DNA from: Saccoglossus kowalevskii
Lineage: Eukaryota > Hemichordata > Enteropneusta > Harrimaniidae
Length of the DNA: 23,741 nucleotides
Assembly (NCBI RefSeq): GCF_000003605.2
Contig: NW_003146283.1
Location: 433,873-457,613 of the forward strand
Direction of reading: 5' to 3'
Made by a program: the position numbers and the translations under genes. Under the pieces are notes generated by a model, which worked only from the letters and a program-made list of their open reading frames with translations, was not told the origin of the DNA and made no database searches. Each line of letters starts with the position of its first letter. The first letter of the stretch is position 1. This document shows positions 2,824 through 23,093 of this stretch, piece after piece.

Positions 2824-3530
2824 ACTAAGGGGTTGTTAACATTATACTAAGGAGTACATCTGCAACTTGATAAGGAGTAAATCTCCACCACGCTGAGGAG
2901 TAATATCTCTACCGCACTGAGGAGTAATATCTCCACCGCGCTGAGGAGTAATATTTCCACCGTGCTGAGGAGTAATATTTCCACCGTGCTGAGGAGTAAT
3001 ATTTCCACCGTGCCGAGGAGTAAAATCTCTACCACACTGAGGAGTAATATCTCTACCACACTGAGGAGTAATATCTCCACCACACTGAGGAGTAATATCT
3101 CCACTACACTGATGAGTAATATCTCCACTATACTGAGGAGTAATATCTCCACTATACTGAGGAGTAATATCTCCGGCACGCCAAGGAGTAATATCTCCAC
3201 TATACTGAGGAGTAATATCTCCACTATACTGAGGAGTAATATCTCCACTACACTGAGGAGTAATATCTCCACCACACTGAGGAGTAATATCTCCACCACA
3301 CTGAGGAGTAATATCTCCACCACACTGAGGAGTAATATCTCCACCACACTGAGGAGTAATATTTCCACCACACTGAGGAGTAATATCTCTACCACATTGA
3401 GGAGTAATATTTCTACCGCGCTGAAAAGTAAAATGTCCACCACGCTGAGAAGTATAATGACCACCACGCTGAGAAGTATAATGTCCACCGCACTGAGGAG
3501 TAAAATGTCCACCTCGCTGAGGAGTAAAAA
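2824..3530. repeat. 24-bp minisatellite array, about 29 units
   Basis: The core unit is CTGAGGAGTAATATCTCCAC plus CACA, 24 bp, repeated without gaps and with local variants (CCGCG, CCGTG, CTATA, CTACA) clustered in neighbouring units. Clustering suggests unequal exchange or slippage. Each unit contains GGAG-N6-CTCC, a small inverted repeat. Because 24 is a multiple of three and the unit lacks stops in one frame on each strand, the array gives long open frames both ways (2962-3609 plus, 2847-3542 minus). These translate to monotonous eight-residue repeats (TLRSNIST and VVEILLLS) and are almost surely not genes. Confidence 0.95.
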
Positions 3531-4040: not shown

Positions 4041-4466
4041 CACTTTTCCAAATTCTTTAGTAAGTTAGTAACGTGAATGTGAGAACACATAATAAATGTG
4101 TTGTTCTACATGTGCATTTAGGATGGAGGAGACTTTAACCAGCTTTAGACTATGCACTGTTATGTTAGTATGATGGCTTGCAATTTATTAGTCATGGTAA
4201 ATTAGTTTATAGGCAGAGAAAATTTTTACATACATGTACAAGACATGATTCATTTTTCTAAATTCTTTAGTACCGGTAAGTTAGTAACGTCAATGTGAGA
4301 AGACATAATAAATGTGTTGTTCTACATGTGTATTTAGAAAGGATGAGACTTTAGCCAGCTTTAGACTATGTACTGTTATGTTAGTATGATGGCTTGCAAT
4401 TTATTAGTCATGGTAAATTAGTTTATAGGCAGAGAAATTTTTTACATACATGTACAAGACATGATT
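4041..4466. repeat. Tandem duplication, two units of 210 and 216 bp
   Basis: Units 4041-4250 and 4251-4466 are nearly identical, from CA(C/T)TTTTC through AGACATGATT. The second unit has a 6-bp insertion (TACCGG-like, in AGTACCGGTAAG) and scattered substitutions. Identity is above 90 percent by eye, so the duplication is fairly recent. No exon is recognised in either unit. Confidence 0.9.
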
Positions 4467-9211: not shown

Positions 9212-9409
9212 AATAGGTGATTTTCCGTACAATTGCGAGATCTTGCGAGATGCACGAAAGACGCGCGTCGAACGTCTGCCGCAAAAATCGAACAATTTGA
9301 TTTTGAACTTCTTAATTTCGTAGCTCACATCGTTAGACCGTTAGAGGAATATTGCTTCCAAATACCCTTACTTAATCGAAATTGCCTATCATCAAATGTG
9401 GACAGCACA
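9212..9409. mobile_element. Partial copy of the 10615-10985 element
   Basis: It starts AATAGGTGATTTTCCGTACA and matches the left half of the element at 10615 through GACAGCACATT, with scattered substitutions and small indels. It then departs from it, and the right terminal repeat is missing. Short open frames here are inherited from the element and are not genes. Confidence 0.75.
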
Positions 9410-10614
9410 TTCAATTTTTGGGGTTCTATGAGCGTCTGTGACTTTTACAAAACTTTAACTTCACGAATGCCAATAAAATCATCAAATACAGTAGTTCATT
9501 GTTCAAGTTGGACTACTATAAGTTTTCAAATATCGTAGCCCAGTGTCTGTGCATCTTTGATTACTGTTATTTTGAGCTGAATGTATTGATGCACCTGTGA
9601 GATTTCAGTGTAATTAACTTTCTTCTATGCAGTGTTCCATGAGGCATTACGGCAATCAAAAAGTCTTTAAATAAGCAATAAGTGAGGTTAAAGAACTTTA
9701 AAAACATTGCTAGTTAATCTTTTAAGTCCGCAACTCATAAAATGGACTCAATTGTGCTAGACACTAAAGAAATCAAAAAAGAAGTCCTAACTTCAATCTC
9801 ATTCAAAATCTACATGAAGATAGACTGCTCTGTCCTGATGGAATTGATCACATGAATTCTTATGTAAGCTTGCCAACACATATACGAGACACTAATGCAC
9901 CAATAATTAAAAATGTATTCATTATTAAAATGTACAATTCGATTTCCGACAAGGAGTTTCATTTTTCCAGTCTACAAAAAAATATTTGCAAAATAAAACT
10001 CCCACGCTATTTTTGGTAGTCGCCATGATTAGCAAACATGACTGGAAAGGTTAAACAAAGCACTAGTCTGCTGAGGTAAGATGTAAGAACTAAGATTAAA
10101 TACTAAACGCCCGATAAACAATTTCCTGCGAGCGTCATGAAATCACAAAAACTAAACAAATGTGTGTGCTTTTATTGGAGATAGGTTTCTAACAGAGCAA
10201 ATAATGTATAAATACTACTAATAACTACTTGTATGTTCATATCTAATTTGTAATGATTATTATTATTATTATTATTATACATCTGTCACCGTAACGCCAT
10301 ACGTTACAGTGTGCTGAAATTTTGTGGTACTAGTATTTTACAGGGTATTTTCATCCTACCATATTGGGAAATGCAAATTCAAAATATGGAACGATTATGC
10401 TTGATTATGCGCCCTCTAATAATAAAAACAAACATGGCTGCCACCAGGGTTTGACCGGAAAAGATGTATAATAATAAGATTATTACGAGAATACCTCAAA
10501 GCATGCACTCAGACAGTATGCGCTCAGAGAGTAAGCTACACGTCAGTCAATACATTACAAAGGTAATGTATCAAATATTTGAAAACACTTAACACCAAAT
10601 TTAATATTCCCTTT
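9410..10614. other. No gene seen; contains one microsatellite
   Basis: Non-coding, AT-rich. It contains the ATT microsatellite listed separately, and a CGCCCTCTAATAAT...ACATGGCTGCC phrase near 10409-10443. That phrase resembles common dispersed repeat ends and short YY1-like words, without an exon behind it. Confidence 0.4.
10256..10279 (+). repeat. (ATT)8 microsatellite
   Basis: Eight uninterrupted ATT units. Confidence 0.95.
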
Positions 10615-10985
10615 AATAGGTGATTTTCTGTACAATTGCGAGATCTCGCGAGATGCATGAAAGACGTGCGCCGAACGTCTGCCGTAAAAATCGAACGATT
10701 GATTTTTAACACAAATTTCTTTATTTCGTAGCTCACATCGACCGGCCGATCTTCGACAGAGGAATATTGCTTCCGAATAGCCCCCACTTAATCGAAATTG
10801 CCTATCATCAAATGTGTACAGCACATTAATTAAGGATGGAAATGTCCCCCAAAATACTTTCGCGTTTGTCGAATCCCACGCGATGATGCCACTACAACAC
10901 ACGCTATGACCTTTGTTTGTCCTGTTTTTACGTTCGATTTCACGCATAACGCGTGATTCTCGCAGTGAACGGAAAATGGTCTATT
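10615..10985. mobile_element. 371-bp inverted-repeat element
   Basis: The left end reads AATAG....TTTTCTGTACAATTGCGAGA and the right end is an imperfect inverted copy (AATAG....TTTTCCGTTCACTGCGAGA on the minus strand). The interior is CpG-rich (CTCGCGAGATGC, GACGTGCGCCGAACG, TCACGCATAACGCGTGA). Two overlapping minus frames of 83 and 130 codons lie within it. They show no transposase motif, and the matching segment of the partial copy at 9212-9409 keeps only an unrelated short frame, so they are unlikely to be functional. A clear target duplication is not visible. Confidence 0.7.
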
Positions 10986-12538
10986 ATATACAGTGACCAT
11001 GACTGAGCCATTTCCACCTTTGATTCATTGAAAAGCTTGTGTCAAAATTACCAATAAAGTATGTCCACAGCAAGCTACATGTAACTAATTAGATTCACAA
11101 ACAATACAGACAAAAGTCAAGTGTCATGCTAAGCCTTGTCTTCATCATGAGTGAACAATTACCTCTTCGTTACCTGCTGTCACTGTTACAATACATAGCA
11201 ATATTATGGACAGTTGGTGAATTGAACAATTGTTCAAGACAGTATAATCCCTAAAATTCTGATGTTGAATTTTGTTCACCATTGAACAACTTCTTCAACT
11301 TTTAAGTTTATCAATACAGTTTCATGAAATTTTTTATAATTACAAATTTGTAAAAATTTTGTTTTTAACACATCAACCAAGGCTTTAACAGAAACTACGC
11401 TGCTCCAGATGAAAAAAAGCTAACACAGGCAAGAAGGCCAGCACCATTAGCGAAAAAAAAAAATTAAATACTTAACGACAGATTTTGTTCCAGGTTATAC
11501 TCACTCCCTATATTGCACGAATACACAGGCTTGTTTCCAGCATTGTGGTCATCTGAGTAGGACTGAATTATAAAGCTTTTTACTCATCATACGGTACATG
11601 ATAACCCCCCTCCAGGCCATTTATGGTACGGTACTTTAACATGGGGCAACTTCACAATTTAAGATAATTTTATGTATTTCAATTATTTTTCACCAAATAT
11701 TTATAAGCAATTGTCACAATCCTGAAAGAGTCAGGATGAGTGATCAAAAATCAAGTACAAGACATACATTTAGACAATTGGTTAGGATTTTGTGTATGAC
11801 GTGTAAAAACTAGGTCTCCAAGACCTGGGTGGGGTCCAGTGATCTCAACCTTATTTCATACAACGTATATCTTAGACAAGACAGAAAGTAAAGTTTACAA
11901 AGAGAACTGATTTCTCAAACAAAGAACACGCACAGCATCATTTTAGACAAATAAAGCTTGTGATTAGGCAGAGGACATGAACTAAATAATCTTTGCTGTA
12001 CAAACAGCTAAACAACAAATATTTAGTGGATCTATGTTCAACAGCAAATCAGTCTAGTGTGCTGAATGGAAAATGTTCGTATTTTAACACAACCTTCACC
12101 ATCAGCGTCATGTTGCAAGAGAAACCATGTTCTGGGTTACAGGAGTATATGACCATCGTCCACATAAGGATAATTCTCAAACACCCGATGACCTTAACCA
12201 AAGACACAAATCCCTTAAAGTACGTCTAGCTAGCCTGTTCACATCTGCTTTTTTGCCCTGAAACCCCAGTGTAACTTAGAGGAATGTGAAAGAAAAACAG
12301 GAATGAACACGTAAAAGAGTTTAACCCCACAAGGAAAGGGGTACCAGCACAGGCGTAACTATTACATAACACTTCACCAGTGAAAAAACAGATGAGAGCA
12401 CAAAACATACATCAATAATTGATCATATAATACATGCATTTTTTAGTTTATATGCGCTTCTATTGGTGATGCGCTTCCAACAGAGCAAATACACTACCAG
12501 TACTCAATAAGTGTTGCATTTTCAATCACATTGTTATA
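10986..12538. other. No supported gene; AT-rich stretch
   Basis: A segment at about 12050-12240 is open on both strands (78 codons plus; roughly 60 codons minus, without stop). I could not match either to a family or find paired splice sites. A fragment resembling the 6954-7133 element interior lies at 12448-12491. Otherwise nothing is seen. Confidence 0.4.
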
Positions 12539-13270
12539 CCATGGAACTATAAACCCCAGGAAGAACAACGAAACTAAAAGGATTAAAAAAACCTTTGTCT
12601 TAGTTTATCTTACAGTGCTTTCGCTTTTGTTTCCACAACATTAGTCATATTCCATGTTAGTTGCCGCCGATACGCCCGTTTCAACCGCTTTGCTGGAAAC
12701 GGAAAACTTGAAAAAAAGTTTCATATCTGCGCAGTAAAATATTTCGTTCACTACACATGCGCAAACAAGTCGGTCTGCAGGGTGACCTTCAGTGTACTGG
12801 AAATCATGCAACAGGTCGGAGTTTTAGCGAGTTTTCATAATTTTCAATGTCGTTTTTGATTACTTCTTTCAACCCTCGAAAAAATAAGGTTGCGAAAGTT
12901 TGCAAAACATGGGGTTTGGTATGCTGTTTGTTGTCGAGATATCCCGACTTATTCCGTGTTTCCCTTCGATTGCCAGAAGTGGCAATGTGTTTTTTTTCCC
13001 TGTTGAATGTCGCTCATTTATCAGTGTTTTTGTCTTGGGGCCATTGTTTTTTATGCTATAACCGAAACAACTCGATCACGTGATCTCCCGAAGTCGCCCG
13101 ATTGACTCCGAAAATGACCGATAGTCGGAGATAAACGTTCATTTGCGTAAATCGGCTTAATTTTTAAAGCGACGAAATAAACAGTCAAAATAAACATTAG
13201 ACATCGCGGCAACTATCATAGTTCAAAGGAAACGAAGTGGTTGTTCTTCCTGGGGTTTATAGTTCCATGG
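12539..13270. mobile_element. 732-bp DNA transposon with perfect 31-bp ends
   Basis: Positions 12539-12569 and 13240-13270 are perfect inverted repeats, beginning CCATGGAACTATAAACCCCA. TTATA flanks both sides (12534-12538, 13271-13275), giving a 5-bp target duplication, or 6 bp if an ambiguous C is counted. The interior has a CpG-rich centre (CGCCGATACGCCCG, CGACGAAATAA) and a 78-codon plus frame (12847-13083) with no recognisable transposase motif. It is therefore probably non-autonomous. Perfect ends and an intact duplication indicate recent insertion. Confidence 0.85.
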
Positions 13271-13346
13271 TTATACAATGTACATTGTGTACAGTTGAAC
13301 TCGAGATCTGCTTGCGATGTTGATTATTATGACATTTAATGGCTAA

Positions 13347-15304: not shown

Positions 15305-16319
15305 CTGAAGAAACTTTGTGATTCTCATCAGAAGTTACAATTATCTGAAGGGATTACCTAAAATGTTCATTATATAGGGCAGTTGGGCGTTTAAAACAGC
15401 AAACAATTATTTAATATTCAAACCCATCCTAAAAGTGCGAAGAAAAAAAATAATATGAAACTTCTGTTTTGGAGAGATTTTTAACACTAAACTCACACTG
15501 AACCATTTGTTCATTTTTTTGAACGTGTCATTCAGCAACCTTATGTCATACATAGGTCACAAGTTTTTATGATTAATCAGTAGTTGTACAATATTTTGCA
15601 GACTGATGATTTAAATACACATACACAAATTTAGGGCACAATATGACGCAAACTTGAAACAAAACCATACCAAGATTATTATGGAAGTGAACCCATTAGA
15701 ATTTAGAAATAGATTATGTTTAGTAGTTCACAGTATGATGAGAATGTAATTCACAATTTATTGAGAACATACTAATAGTAGGGCAAGTACAATATATAGT
15801 ATGTTTACATAATAACAATAATAACTGTACTGGACATGTACCATCTGAGGGTACTGTATGGTAAAGACAAAACATAAAATGTACGGCACAGATATAAACA
15901 AACAATACATAAAGTGAAACTATTAAAGAAAATATCTGTTACAAAAAACGCCTTTGTTTTTATTTAATTTGCTATATTGTATTTTTTTTTAATATTTGGC
16001 CAATGCAATACTACACTTGCATATTGATTTACGCGTCATTTGTGTAGTTATTTGTTTACATACAAAATTCTCTAGGCTTGAACTAGTATGCTGTGACCAC
16101 AGAATTATAGATTGTGACACACCCCTTGCTTTGTGACAAATGTAATACCACCAAAAGTTGGTTTCCTTCTCAAAACATGGATATATGACCGACACAACAA
16201 ACCCATTCTCTTATTTTTTATAAATATTTAAATTAATTTCAACTGAATCCAATCAGCTAATCAATACTCAAAATGTGCATTGAAAACATTACAATATTTC
16301 TCCATTGACCAAAAGAAAA
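15305..16319. other. No gene seen
   Basis: AT-rich, with only short frames lacking splice borders or motifs. Probably intronic sequence of the minus-strand gene. Confidence 0.4.
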
Positions 16320-16775
16320 CTAGTGATATTTTAAAAAATGAAGGGAATGGATTTGTTGTGTGAACAGTATAAGGCGTTTTACAAAACATGTATTTCCAAG
16401 AATTTGAAAAACATATTGCAGACGACATTCTTTTTCAAAAATAATGTAGTTCCATGATTTTACAAAGGGACATTCTAAAATAAACAATAGCAGCCTTTGT
16501 GAAAAGTAGTGGAGAGACCAAATGTGTAGCATCCTTGTATCAAAATTCTCTTGTTCAATGAAGTTTGGCAAACTGCCATTGTTTTTGTACAATAAAAACT
16601 TCAGGCATGTTATTGAACTTTTAAAAAGGTCATATAATACATTTATGAAACGGGATGAGAAACATACTTCTATTACTTTGACCCATTTTAGTAGCGAATA
16701 AAAAAAGCTGTGACCTAAACAAGTACGCCTACTGAACAGCTGTGCACCCAAAACATTCGTCATGGGACAATACAT
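16320..16775 (-). other. 151-codon open frame of unknown status
   Basis: This is the longest frame not explained by a repeat. It begins MYCPMTNVLGAQLFSRRTCL directly after an in-frame TGA and is rich in Phe, Leu, Ile, Cys and Lys. At this base composition such composition also arises by chance from A/T-rich DNA. No domain, signal peptide or clear membrane-segment pattern is recognisable. It lies on the same strand as the NRBP1-like gene and within its presumed intron 1. It matches no part of that family that I know. Confidence 0.2.
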
Positions 16776-16791
16776 TCATACTCGCCATTCA

Positions 16792-16815
16792 CCCCCCCCC
16801 CCCCCCAAAAAAAAA
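16792..16815 (+). repeat. C15-A9 homopolymer junction
   Basis: Fifteen C followed directly by nine A. It lies about 150 bases upstream of the candidate plus-strand start codon. Length is likely to vary or be misread. Confidence 0.9.
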
Positions 16816-16967
16816 TCTCGTATCCAATTAAACTAATTATCTTTTTTTTTAAATCGGGGGACTTCACAATTTTGTGTGAAAATTGACAATGATAGAGAAT
16901 AAGGTCACTCAGAAACGGCCACGCGGACTATTCATGACATACATACAACAGTACAAAGTTAGTCAAA
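16816..16967 (+). promoter_or_regulatory. Candidate promoter and 5' UTR of the plus-strand gene
   Basis: About 150 bases precede the ATG at 16968. They include a CpG-containing patch (AAACGGCCACGCGGACT at 16912-16928) and the AAAATGGCGG word around the start. That word resembles the YY1-type element AANATGGC often found over metazoan translation starts. No TATA box is evident. A C15A9 homopolymer run lies just upstream. The assignment depends on exon 1 being real. Confidence 0.25.
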
Positions 16968-17029
16968 ATGGCGGAATTTGAGGTTACAGTTTGCCACTTC
17001 AACTGCTGTTCCCGGCATCATTTCGGCAA
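16968..17029 (+). CDS. Unrecognised plus-strand gene, candidate coding exon 1
   Basis: The exon encodes 20 codons plus two bases, beginning MAEFEVTVCHFNCCSRHHFG. The ATG is in good context (AAAATGG). An in-frame TGA ten triplets upstream (16935-16937) makes it a plausible true start. It ends CAA|GTAAAT, a fair donor, in phase 2. Exon 2 starts with exactly one base before its frame, so the two join in frame as ...GK LIMEE. The short N-terminus is rich in Cys and His (C9, H10, C13, C14, H17, H18), which could bind metal, though that is inference. The exon sits within intron 1 of the minus-strand NRBP1-like gene. An alternative is that the true 5' end is a non-coding exon elsewhere and translation starts at the ATG in exon 2. 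Confidence 0.5.
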
Positions 17030-17382
17030 GTAAATGTCTCCATTTAAAGCAAGATTCAAGTGTGTTATATAGCCTATCAGAAAATATCCCTGTTTCACTA
17101 AAATGTTCAAAAAAACATCGAATTCAAAAACGATCCCGGCACATATGTGACTGTAGATGTCAAATACAGGCATTGAGACCGTGTGGGTGAAACGATCGCA
17201 TGTTCTATTCCCGGATTCCTCGCCTGCTAGTTTAATTTCTAAATTTATAGTCGTTAACCGTCATTTTTCAAACAACGGCCAAGAACAGTAGTATTATTTT
17301 CATAAATTTCATGTTTGTCTGGTAATATACGAGCACAAGCAACCACATGAATCAAAGCACCATTCCAGTGCACTAGCCCTAC

Positions 17383-17493
17383 CTCTTCCCTTCTCTTCTG
17401 CCATCGACCACACGGACTTTCTTCCAGAACTTCTTCATCTTCGCTTTCATCACCACTATCCTTTGCGGCCTTGTCCTCTGGTTCACTTGACAT
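17383..17493 (-). CDS. NRBP1: NRBP1-like pseudokinase, first coding exon (partial gene)
   Basis: This exon encodes 37 residues. It starts MSSEPEDK, continues through an acidic Ser/Asp/Glu stretch, and ends with LEESPCGRWQKRREE. From memory, that block is the signature just before the kinase-like domain of nuclear receptor binding protein (NRBP1 and NRBP2 in vertebrates, Madm in flies). These are pseudokinase adaptors linked to ER-Golgi traffic and growth signalling. The reading frame runs on past the exon, but similarity to the family stops exactly at a GAG|GTAGGG donor (GT at 17381-17382), so the exon ends in phase 0. The start is supported by an in-frame TAA eight triplets upstream (17518-17520) and an A at -3. 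The family protein is roughly 500 residues, so the kinase-like domain and C-terminus are missing here. I found no later exon to the left. The exon lies inside intron 1 of the plus-strand gene. Family assignment is from remembered similarity, not a search. Confidence 0.85.
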
Positions 17494-17700
17494 CTTTTGG
17501 CACCGACTGTCTCGGTGTTATTCCAACAACACGTCTGGAATCACAGAAATACGCCACGCATTCAATATACTATATTATCCGGTATTACTATGCCATGGCC
17601 TAACGGCGAGAAAATCAGCTTCGAACGAGATTGCAAGTAAATAATTTAAATTGCAAATGAGGTTGTTGTTATTAATTTGCATTGCTAATGAGCCGGTCAA
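17494..17700 (-). promoter_or_regulatory. Probable 5' UTR and promoter zone of the NRBP1-like gene
   Basis: This stretch lies directly upstream of the NRBP1-like ATG. It has more CpG than the flanking AT-rich DNA (CACGTC, ACGCCACGC, CCGG, AACGGCGAG, TTCGAACGAG). No clear TATA box sits at a fixed distance, which suits a housekeeping-type promoter. The start site cannot be placed from sequence alone. The plus-strand gene would be transcribed through this segment as intron, so sense and antisense signals may overlap here. Confidence 0.35.
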
Positions 17701-19353
17701 AGTTGAAGTTTTGCCTTGTCCATTAAACAAGGGGTGAAAGTATTCACTTCAAAGCGAATACCACATTGTAAACCATTTCACACTTATTGTGAAATAGTTG
17801 TGGACGTAACTAAATTCTTAATTGGTCATATTAACTGATTAACAACTGAATCCTTGCGTTCTTCATGTTTGTTCCCAGTGAAAACTCCAACGTCACAAAC
17901 TGCCTGCTCGGAATGAACTCGCCCAGACAAACTATTGCGCATGGTCATTACAGTCATTGCAAATGGCTGACGCGTGGGAATGAATCGAAGCACACAAAAA
18001 ACTGGAAATAACAATTGTTTCAGAAACTTTGTTATCGTGTTATTACATTATGGATTTTCTGTCGTGCACACACTGTGAATACTAAGGTAACTATCGTGTG
18101 TAATTTTATGCCAACACATCATGAAACTAGCTTGATACCACAGTCCGGTGTTCTAATATTTTTTACAACTTATGGTTTTGTGCATCGGCGGTGAAACTAA
18201 AAAATATCCTTATATAACGCCGGTAACAACGGGTTACAAAGTAGGGTATTCTATCAAGACGATTTGATGATAATGATGATCTACAGTTGCACAATATTTT
18301 GTGAACGGTCAAATTATTTCCAATATCTGAGCATAATTTCACTACCTTTCATTGTATTTTAGGGTATATGTCCCTTTTTATTATAAAATGCTGTATGTGC
18401 TTCCTTGTTCTCCGATTTTTTTTATATTTTGTGATACGATTGCCCCAGTGGTTTGTTTGGGCTGGAATTTTTGGGACTTGAGAGTGATATTTGGAAGAAA
18501 ACAGAGTAATATTGAACATTGGCAATCAAAAATCTGCATGTTCAATGCCTTGCCCTCTGGCAGTTCAGCATGAATTTCCATAAACTGTCAAACTACCACT
18601 TTTGCACATGAAATTGAGTGTTGAACTTTTTTTTGGTCAAAAACTGGAAGGAAAACGGCGAATACATTTCGAAAAAATTCTGAATACAACAAAATGCATA
18701 AACAATTCAACAATAAACAGTGAAGTCATTCGTATAGGGCTGTCTCTCACTACTAATATTATAGTAATAGCAATGGGAAATTTAAGGAAACAAATTTATT
18801 GATACTGTTGACTGAGATCTCTTTCTCAATACAGACCAGTTCAAAAGTGCTAATGCGAAATTTCTTTTACTTCCTGTTTCGTTTGTTTTGGATCATACTT
18901 GAGCGAAAACTTGTAGTCCTTACAGAATTGTTATCTAGTCTATGGCAATCATTGCTTCAATCAGTGTGGTTAATGCAACAATATTATTATTATACGTCTT
19001 TTTCTAGACTGGTCCAGCTGTGGCTATTTTAATTATTTTCATTCTTAAATCATGGTTCGATGTGAAATTACCACAACTGGTCTATTCTGAGGCGTATTAA
19101 TTGCTATTAATTATTCATGGTATGGACTTCCAAAAGAGGAAAGTAAAAGTGCGCTAGTTCAATGGGTTCTACGCGTCACCTCAAAAACACAGCCACAACT
19201 ATAGAGGGCGCTATAGAACAGACCAGTCATGAAAATTTCGTGTCAACGCGAGTCATTCTCCAAACTTGTTTTTCAGAGAAATATATAAAACAATAAAATT
19301 GCCACGACTTTGCCAAAGTACATTTGAAAATAATGATACACTTGACTTTACAG
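17701..19353. other. Intron 1 of the plus-strand gene or upstream intergenic DNA
   Basis: No coding exon is supported. Short frames around 18352-19032 are AT-driven. Donor-like sites (GCAA|GTAAAT near 17636, AAG|GTAACT near 18086) could belong to an alternative non-coding first exon of the plus-strand gene. An inverted pair, ACTGGTC-CAG-TGTGGCT (about 19006-19024) and AGCCACA...GACCAGTC (about 19191-19228), brackets about 220 bases with a GAGGGCGC core. It may be a small decayed element. Confidence 0.4.
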
Positions 19354-19490
19354 GCTTATCATGGAAGAGTTGCAATTCTTTGACTCCGGTGTGGAGTTGG
19401 CCGTGACGTGTGCTGGCCATATTGATGATCCTGGTTTAACAGTACAGTTGCAACACATAAAGTCTAAACTATGTGAAGTATTAGATACAG
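19354..19490 (+). CDS. Unrecognised plus-strand gene, coding exon 2
   Basis: The exon follows a good acceptor (CTTGACTTTACAG) and ends at ACAG|GTGAGT, a near-consensus donor. It encodes LIMEELQFFDSGVELAVTCA and then GHIDDPGLTVQLQHIKSKLC and EVLDT. The composition is helix-rich and soluble, typical of a real protein, with no obvious signal peptide or membrane segment. If exon 1 is wrong, the ATG at 19361 is the likely start. It leaves phase 1 and joins in frame with the exon at 21152. I do not recognise the family. It could be the N-terminus of a larger alpha-helical protein, since the gene continues beyond the window. Confidence 0.7.
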
Positions 19491-19963
19491 GTGAGTTGAA
19501 TTACATAACAGTACAAAGTAAAATACTATGCTGGGATTCAGGAACAGCCAATGAAAAAACATTTTAGTGTTAATGGAGGCCCAGCTCTGTGATGTACAGT
19601 GTGATGTATATGAAAGATGTCTGTTCTCCAACTAAAATTACATACATTATCAATGCATAACAATAGAATGTTTTAATCACCTCCATTGTTAGTCCCCGTT
19701 CGACACAGTCTGAAAACTGGGACTTGGATTGGATTGACCTCTGTGTGTGCGTCTGTGGATTCCTAGCACCGGACCTATATCTTGGACATGCCTAGACAAA
19801 TCACATTGAAGCTTCACACATACATGGGCGAATGGCGGCCAATTTTGTACTGAAATCTAGCATTTCTGGCATTCCAGAACTAGTTCTTGGTTGGATTTTG
19901 TTCAAATTTAGTACATACATTGGATGTTATGGTACCTTGGTGCACTTGGTGCACAGGCACATG

Positions 19964-19990
19964 TCTGTGTGTGTGTGTGCGTGCGTGCAT
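19964..19990 (+). repeat. TG-rich microsatellite
   Basis: A (TG)n run grades into GCGTGCGTGCATGCG. Confidence 0.85.
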
Positions 19991-20371
19991 GCGTTCGGAC
20001 CTACATGTAGATTTTAGAGATGCCTGGACAGATTACATTCGAACTTCACACATACATCATACATACCTAATATTATACAAATGCACATCAATTTGTTTCT
20101 CGATCTGATTGAAGATGCCCGAATAGCGACATTTTTCTTCTCAGCTGTTTACAGATGGATTTTGTTCAAACTTTGTACAATACATTGGACATTATGGGAC
20201 CTTGATGCACATCATTTTATTTTACAGATCAGATTTTATATTCATTATACATCATGTAGTAGATATACAGATGTATTGGTTTGACCTCTGATTCAAAATG
20301 GCCGAATGGTGGCCATTTTTCTGCTAAAAAATCATCAAAAATTGAACATTCCTGGCATTCTGGAAAGGATT

Positions 20372-20395
20372 TCGGCCGGCCGATGGATGGATGGA
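20372..20395. repeat. 12-bp palindrome joined to a GATG microsatellite
   Basis: TCGGCCGGCCGA (20372-20383) is a perfect palindrome and contains an FseI-type GGCCGGCC. It runs directly into GATGGATGGATGGA (20382-20395). Confidence 0.85.
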
Positions 20396-20640
20396 TTTTC
20401 TTATAAATATATTCCAAGCGAAAATAAAGTATTTTATGTACCTTTGGTAGACCTCACTTAGATTTTTTTCCATTTTATGATAATATCTTTAATTTTAGTG
20501 AATATTTTTGTAATTTTTGGTATAATTTTTTGAAAACTGCAAGTCCAATTTCTTTAATACATGTATTATACATAATTGTACTACATGTGGACCTCTCTCA
20601 AATTTGTTCATTTTGTAATGATATCTTCAACTCGTTAATT

Positions 20641-21151
20641 GAAATGGGCATTGCTAACAGTGAAGCTATTTCAGTCGTGAGGCTGCTTGTTATTTGGAGG
20701 TGTTAATTCCATGTGCTTCATCTTCAGCTACACTATTATCTGTTGAGTAAGTTCAAAAAAGCCACTTGATCTATTGAAGGCAGCTTCCTGGGTCTCTTTT
20801 GCTCTAGGTTGACAATGAAACACAATTCCTGCAAACTAATACAGTTACATTATTGGAAGGATCATAAGTGTGTATCCTTTGTTTCCAACATACAAACGTA
20901 TAACACATGCCATGCAAACTATCGACAGTGCAACTAATGCCATTTAGTTGCCTCTTTTGCTGGGCGTTTAAAAGTATGTGTGCGTGTTCGTACATCACTG
21001 AACTTAACTTTGACTTCCAATAAAGCAATGAAAAAGACTATTTAGTTCATAGCTTTTTAAAAATGGAAGACTGGACAAAACGTACTCAGACAAAACGTCC
21101 CAGTAATAAGTGAAAGACATGTACATGTACATTTAAATTTGATTTTTCAAG
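20641..21151. other. Intron sequence, nothing further seen
   Basis: The end of intron 2 of the plus-strand gene. A 74-codon minus frame at 20804-21028 has no supporting feature. Confidence 0.4.
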
Positions 21152-21227
21152 CTGCCAATCTGGCTTTCACACACTGGTCGATCCACACAGGACTTCACAA
21201 AGTCTACCGTTTCAAAATAACAAGATG
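21152..21227 (+). CDS. Unrecognised plus-strand gene, coding exon 3
   Basis: This 76-base exon is bounded by TTGATTTTTCAAG| and AAGATG|GTGAGT, a consensus donor. Joined to exon 2 in phase, it reads AANLAFTHWSIHTGLHKVYR followed by FKITR, with no stop, and leaves two bases (TG) for the next exon. The match of phase, borders and protein-like composition makes it convincing although it is too short to stand alone as an ORF. I tested the plausible acceptors to the right (for example 21367, 21385, 21629, 22570 and 22784). Each gives an early stop or no usable exon, so exon 4 probably lies beyond the window. Three exons give about 91 residues of a longer protein. Confidence 0.65.
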
Positions 21228-22239
21228 GTGAGTTTAATCTCAAGTCCAAAATAAACATAACAGTATGTTTATTTTTTTTTCTTGAAAAATTCCACCTGAA
21301 ACATTCTTAACGGTACATTCATTTATTTTCTCTAAATTGGGCTGATTAAAAACTTGACCTATCAGGTCAATAAACACACTTTCAGGTCACTCGTGGGCAT
21401 AAAAAAACATGGCGGATATCGTGTCGCATCAAGTGTTTAAATGAGGGTTACATAGGCAAGTTCATTCGTTTCACAATCCGATTCAAGGTGGCCGAATGAT
21501 GGCCATTTTTTGATGGAAAATTCTCAAATTCTGCCATCAAGAATTCTGGATATCTGCCATACATGGGCAGCAATTTTTTTGATCTTTGAAGACATTGAAC
21601 ATGATGGGATCATAATGTATTTCAGATCAGACTGTATGACGGAAATTTTGTATTAACGAATGCTGTTCTAAGGCCATGACTTTGACATGCTTTGACAAAT
21701 TGTACTCTGGTAATAAAGTGTACAACTACATTAAACATCATGTCACACATGTGTTACCAATAATGAAAATTAAATTGGTGTCATTGTCCGATTTTACAAG
21801 AAATGTTGTAACAAATGTCCAAATATTGTATTGGATAAAAAAAAAATCATACATGTATATTATTATGGATATCCATCATGATATTATTCAAACGTTTTTA
21901 AAAATTGCAAGTCTCCAGTCTGCTAATAGCGGTCTATTATCGGGTATACAATTCATCGGCCATTCGTGATAAACATGTTAAAATTGTATTTTCAATACTA
22001 GTAGTTAGAATAGTAAAAAAAATATCACAATAGTGAAATTGCCCGTCAGATACACACTGGTATGGCATATTCACCTGCACTAAACTGTATACATGTAGGT
22101 TGTTATCATAAAATGCTTACTGACTTGTAGAGAATTTCTGGTTCACAGATCAATTTGTAACAAGTTGACCCATGTTGTAGCAGGACAAGTAGGCGTAAGT
22201 GGCACGCTCGCCGGCTAAACTTCAGACCCTACTAACACC
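21228..22239. other. Intron 3 sequence with one dispersed repeat unit
   Basis: It contains the fourth copy of the repeat unit described at 19491-20640 (about 21486-21600), and an AACATGGCGGATATCG word (21410-21425) that opens only a short frame. A 97-codon plus frame (21676-21969) shows no motif and no usable splice phase. Confidence 0.4.
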
Positions 22240-22518: not shown

Positions 22519-23093
22519 ATGAAATTTTCGCGTAAAAGCAAATTAGAAAAAATTTGCGTTTTCCTTGCAGATGAATTATTTCAACTTTATTATTCAATGC
22601 CTGTTACTAATTCACACATTAAAATGGGTGTTACGCTTCCACTAGCCATCACACGTCCGAGGATTATCGCTATTGTTACTGCAGTTCACACTAAGAATGG
22701 TAACCATTTTACCAAGTAAAAAATACGGGAAACAATGCATATTTAGACACTGTTATCATTCCGTATGTGACATCGTCTAACCAGAAGCTGCGGTTACCCG
22801 AAAAACAAGAAGCCCTGGCAATTCAGCCCTCTGGAATATTCGAAAACCGTCTGACCAAAGGTCATTGTTTAAAATGGTGTTTCGTGAACTTAAGTTGTGT
22901 ACGTGTTCGAGAAGTCAAAGTCGATGATTGTTTCAATTCAATGGAAGTAAATGATATTGAAACAGTCGTGATTGAAGAGGATATATTTTGGATAATAGCG
23001 AAAGGTGTACCCAAAAGTCTTGCAATAACGAGAAATAAAAAAAAACTTGTCTACTGCATGCGCGGAGTGCTCTGGATGGACATTGTAAAGTAG
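22519..23093 (+). pseudogene. Protein-like frame with one frameshift, probable pseudogene
   Basis: An ATG at 22519 opens a 66-codon frame (starting MKFSRKSKLEKICVFLADEL) that stops at 22719. A second frame, offset by -1, is open from 22704 to the TAG at 23091-23093. It passes through NTGNNAYLDTVIIPY and later ETVVIEEDIFWIIAKG. The frames overlap at a CATTTTACC tract (22705-22713), where one missing base would explain the break. The second frame has no ATG at its beginning, only a GTG at 22767, so it makes sense only as a continuation of the first. Both parts use acidic, basic and hydrophobic residues in a protein-like way. I recognise no family. A splice from GT at 22700 to AG at 22784 is out of phase. 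It could be a decayed retrocopy, a captured gene, or a real gene with a base-calling error. Confidence 0.4.

Follow-up and report, generated by a model that had tools for sequence, protein, structure and literature searches.

A probable divergent gene pair at a promoter-like CpG domain of Saccoglossus kowalevskii, comprising an NRBP1-like gene and possibly NCOA6, with candidate interleaved starts

The window, that is, the whole stretch of 23,741 nucleotides analysed here, contains the first coding exon of an NRBP1-like gene on the minus strand and, to the right of it, a putative exon of a second gene on the plus strand that may be NCOA6. A short segment to the left of the NRBP1-like exon had been described as the first coding exon of the plus-strand gene, and the two exons at issue lie in a domain with promoter-like composition. 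These features are as follows:

16801 to 18400, no strand: near-normal CpG domain, promoter-like, delineated by o/e in 400-bp windows
16968 to 17029, plus strand: claimed coding exon 1, a candidate of 62 nt, with its ATG context, an upstream TGA and a weak donor
17383 to 17493, minus strand: NRBP1-like first coding exon, 37 codons, with a tblastn match, a donor and an upstream stop
19354 to 19490, plus strand: putative exon 2, 137 nt, with splice signals, an open frame, distinct GC content and an NCOA6-like lead

The minus-strand exon begins with an ATG at 17493 that opens 37 codons, with a GT directly after 17383, and is preceded by an in-frame TAA at 17518-17520. Its donor, GAG/GTAGGG, is in phase 0 and has a score of 4.03 that is reached by 15 of the 2,897 GTs on both strands. 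When human NRBP1 (535 residues) was used as a tblastn query with an E cut-off of 10, residues 41-71 matched positions 17469-17380 of the minus strand with 74% identity (E 3e-9), and the conserved N-terminal EESPCGRWQKRREEV segment of NRBP1 was found in the exon by the same query. The assignment of this exon to NRBP1 in the preliminary description is thus confirmed, and the exon is firmly identified by homology as the N-terminal segment of this protein. The window has no other recognisable NRBP1 exon, including those of the pseudokinase domain, all remaining tblastn matches having E values of at least 1.8; accordingly, intron 1 of NRBP1 would be longer than 17 kb, an open-ended value, and the remaining exons may lie past the left end of the window. 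A degenerate pattern for the NRBP1 PCGRWQKRREEV had 0 matches in the viral and 0 in the prokaryotic contig collections, as expected there, and a search of PDB sequences with the exon yielded only an unrelated protein at E 2.6.

On the plus strand, putative exon 2 is delimited by the best donor of the window (CAG/GTGAGT; score 8.36, one of 2,897 GTs) and by an acceptor at 19353 whose score is reached by 25 of the 2,335 AGs. Its GC content is 42% compared with 34-35% in the flanking sequence, and it can be read in frame either as a continuation of exon 1 or starting at an ATG of its own, 19361, which has a purine at -3 and a G at +4. No further exon of the plus-strand gene was recognised downstream, up to the end of the window, where the plus strand has 46 frames of 28 codons or more, and Rfam and ARAGORN gave no matches. 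The same part of the window includes a 129-codon open frame at 22704-23093 (plus strand), without a Pfam match.

For the plus-strand gene, the sequence provides a weak lead to NCOA6, with chances that appear to be somewhat better than even. The open frame 19346-19567 matches Pfam family PF13820 (NCOA6/TRADD-N) over match residues 19-64 with E 0.12, a match that extends past the exon 2 donor into intron residues; no match to this family is reported for the peptide bounded by the exon itself, nor is one listed for any of the 46 downstream frames. When the exon 2 peptide was shuffled 20 times, matches were obtained to two unrelated Pfam families, one member each, with E values of 0.0056 and 0.059. 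For this reason, the Pfam matches of other frames in the window (E 0.04 and 0.0079-0.24) were taken as chance. The exon 2 peptide can be aligned with the N-terminal stretch of human NCOA6 through the motifs FDSG(V/L)E and GxIDD. The local alignment has a score of 31, which is reached by 92 of 2,000 shuffles, and shuffling the first 15 residues of exon 2 produced an exact 4-mer shared with the first 49 residues of this stretch in 329 of 20,000 trials; tblastn yielded no match at exon 2. According to one study, NCOA6 of most animals has TRADD-N as its sole recognizable globular domain and is kept as a single copy across most animals (PMC8195603). HPS3 was also considered as the plus-strand gene and rejected: its sequence scores 18, below the mean of about 23 for shuffles of the same peptide against NCOA6, and neither exon 1 nor exon 2 was matched in tblastn.

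The CpG content of the region around the starts is distinct from that of its immediate surroundings. CpG o/e is 0.89-1.12 in 400-bp windows starting at 16801-18001, as opposed to 0.24-0.56 in those starting at 15501-16501 and 0.51-0.57 in those starting at 18201-18501, and there is a smaller rise (o/e 0.87) at 18901-19300. Stretches near 5.9, 10.7, 13 and 23.2 kb, some of which lie in repeats, contain more CpGs than this domain, so that the domain can be considered supporting evidence only. The simplest reading that we infer from the CpG profile is an open promoter domain common to both genes (about 16.8-18.4 kb), compatible with each of the three models of the plus-strand start that are discussed below; the domain may also reflect the promoter of NRBP1 alone.

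GC content of the window varies between 26 and 45% over 500-bp steps; together with the NRBP1 exon and the splice signals, this gives the window the appearance of animal DNA. Repeats of several kinds are scattered along it. At 2873-3527, a 24-bp unit is repeated about 27 times with 90% matches, and the array is open in two frames of the minus strand and one of the plus strand, in each case over more than 230 codons. A 216-bp unit is tandemly duplicated at 4060-4466 (95% matches). A CpG-rich dispersed repeat is present in two copies, at 9212-9411 and 10615-10827 (matches of 93 nt, 89%, and 47 nt, 94%), the latter overlapping a 141-codon open frame on the minus strand (10555-10980) that has no Pfam match. 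At 12528-13281, there is a 42-nt inverted repeat, 93% complementary, with arms 670 nt apart, a candidate MITE or small DNA transposon. The segments 19776-20057 and about 20290-21510 contain two diverged copies (80%) of a 50-nt repeat and, further on, a recurring phrase of the ATGGCCGAATGGTGGCCATTTTT type. The start of the plus-strand exon 1 has 15 nt in common with the repeat near 20.3 kb at 93% (E 0.63), a similarity on a par with other chance matches, and a dispersed-repeat origin of exon 1 was set aside.

The claimed exon 1 of the plus-strand gene begins with an ATG at 16968 in the strong context CAAAATGG (CAAAATGGCGG). An in-frame TGA precedes it at 16935, and the frame stays open over 62 nt up to a GT at 17030. 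These letters, like both starts, the upstream in-frame stops and the donor GTs of the two genes in general, are exactly as previously described, and the span of 526 bp given for the overlap is arithmetically correct. If exon 1 is used, the plus-strand transcript would cross NRBP1 exon 1 and the primary transcripts of the two genes would overlap by at least 526 bp, an outcome to which we assign somewhat less than an even chance. Joined to the acceptor at 19353, a good one, exon 1 stays in frame with 19354-19490, reading MAEFEVTVCHFNCCSRHHFGK-LIMEELQFFDSGVELAVTCAGHIDDPGLTVQLQHIKSKLCEVLDT, and this junction would put FDSG at residue 30, compared with residue 28 in human NCOA6. Furthermore, the GC content of the 62-nt segment is 48% against 35-38% alongside, and the segment is located inside the CpG-normal domain. 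Its donor, CAAGTAAAT (CAA/GTAAAT), by contrast, lacks a G at -1 and +5 and is weak, with a score of 2.01 that is reached by 88 of the 2,897 GTs in the window. The Cys/His-rich exon 1 peptide shows no similarity to the N-terminal stretch of NCOA6 (1,920 of 2,000 shuffles score as high or higher), and a search of PDB sequences with the joined peptide of exons 1 and 2 returned nothing. As a further point against the exon, ATGGCGG may also be a motif of the YY1/Pho type.

Candidate first exons were defined by a purine at -3, a G at +4, 40-300 nt of open frame and a donor score of at least 2.0. Five candidates of this quality exist on both strands of the whole window, namely, 16968, the ATG at 19361 and three others, one of which has the phase of the 16968 site. 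The chance expectation for equal candidates in the right phase within the 2,386 nt preceding exon 2 is about 0.05-0.07, where about 0.05 is derived from the same-phase count and about 0.07 from three or four sites spread over the three phases. The thresholds were fixed at the values of exon 1 itself after the site had been seen, the donor at 2.01 just passing, and therefore the estimate flatters exon 1. Altogether, exon 1 appears plausible on these sequence features, modestly above chance and unproven.

The plus-strand transcript could instead begin to the right of the NRBP1 start, with two features bearing on this possibility:

18084 to 18092, plus strand: donor-like AAG/GTAACT, which could terminate a non-coding leader exon, detected by donor score
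19282 to 19289, plus strand: TATA-box-like TATATAAA, 79 nt before the ATG at 19361

The donor at 18087 has a score of 4.78, the highest among the five plus-strand sites scoring at least 2 in the 16.6-19.35 kb interval; it is thus the best donor between the genes and is located inside the CpG-normal domain. A leader exon ending at this site and spliced to the acceptor at 19353, with translation from the ATG at 19361 in its favorable context, would correspond to a bidirectional promoter without overlap of the two genes. This arrangement appears unlikely, although not strikingly so, considering that a donor of this strength is probably not rare over a region of this length. Still less probable is a start near 19.31 kb directed by the TATA box at 19282, in which case exon 2 would be the first exon and the starts of the two genes would be about 1.8 kb apart. 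Strong-context ATGs number 114 in the window (67 on the plus and 47 on the minus strand), and only the one at 19361 has TATAWAAR 40-130 nt upstream; the small local rise of CpG o/e at 18901-19300 is consistent with such a start. Nevertheless, TATAWAAR occurs eight times in the window, three times on the plus strand, so that a chance occurrence is possible, and the good acceptor at 19353 would be left without explanation. The acceptor favors splicing and argues against a start at the TATA box; the TATA box points in the opposite direction.

Combined, these observations suggest a divergent pair that consists of NRBP1 and a second gene, possibly NCOA6, both probably served by one promoter-like domain. 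This explanation is supported by the firm homology of NRBP1 exon 1, by the donor, acceptor, raised GC and open frame of exon 2, by CpG o/e values near 1 around both starts that fall to about half on either side, and by the FDSG and GxIDD motifs common to the exon 2 peptide and human NCOA6. It is weakened by the tentative character of the NCOA6 lead, by the CpG-rich stretches elsewhere in the window, and by the lack of a recognised further exon of either gene. Under the divergent-pair explanation, NRBP1 would leave leftwards from about 17.5 kb and the second gene rightwards, with the domain at about 16.8-18.4 kb, which is probably unmethylated, serving both. Each gene most likely would have a core promoter of its own in or beside the domain, with the open chromatin common to the two and, if exon 1 is used, the plus-strand polymerase would cross the NRBP1 start.

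Whether the 5' ends of the genes are interleaved, as claimed in the preliminary description, depends wholly on the weakly supported exon 1 of the plus-strand gene, the use of which that description itself gave as inferred: nearby divergent starts are likely, whereas the use of 16968-17029 as an exon is not confirmed. The probability that plus-strand transcripts begin to the left of 17.49 kb and overlap those of NRBP1 seems to be just short of even, and the non-overlapping divergent starts, taken together, are about as likely as the interleaved ones. The more demanding version, in which the two coding starts are interleaved in each other's first intron and the coding transcript of the plus-strand gene would necessarily overlap irrespective of start-site choice, coupling the two conserved genes, is rather doubtful.

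Genes that overlap at their 5' ends are common and well documented: in a human study, 582 such gene pairs are reported from 73 TSS libraries, with the overlap depending on the start sites used (PMC8076222). In the same study, 73 pairs were tested, with 33 positive and three negative cases of expression correlation, and mean expression was higher when the genes overlapped (PMC8076222); these data argue against assuming antisense repression at the present locus. Of the papers listed by a literature search, none concerned an NRBP1/NCOA6 pair, as judged by titles and the starts of abstracts. Should the overlap prove genuine and be conserved in related species, the locus would be a simple case of a 5' overlap fixed by coding exons and, as such, useful for asking whether overlap of this kind couples or hinders both genes.

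The present locus resembles the human pairs (PMC8076222) in its divergent orientation and, if exon 1 is right, in the 5' overlap itself; it differs in that the overlap is predicted from DNA alone. The human overlaps, as reported there, are mostly TSS-dependent, whereas the present one would be a feature of every coding transcript if exon 1 is the sole coding start. As with bidirectional promoters, two divergent starts would be associated with a single CpG-normal domain, within it or next to it; in bidirectional promoters, however, a spacer separates the starts, which here would be interleaved if exon 1 is used. If it exists as claimed, the arrangement adds one more case to a known and common kind.
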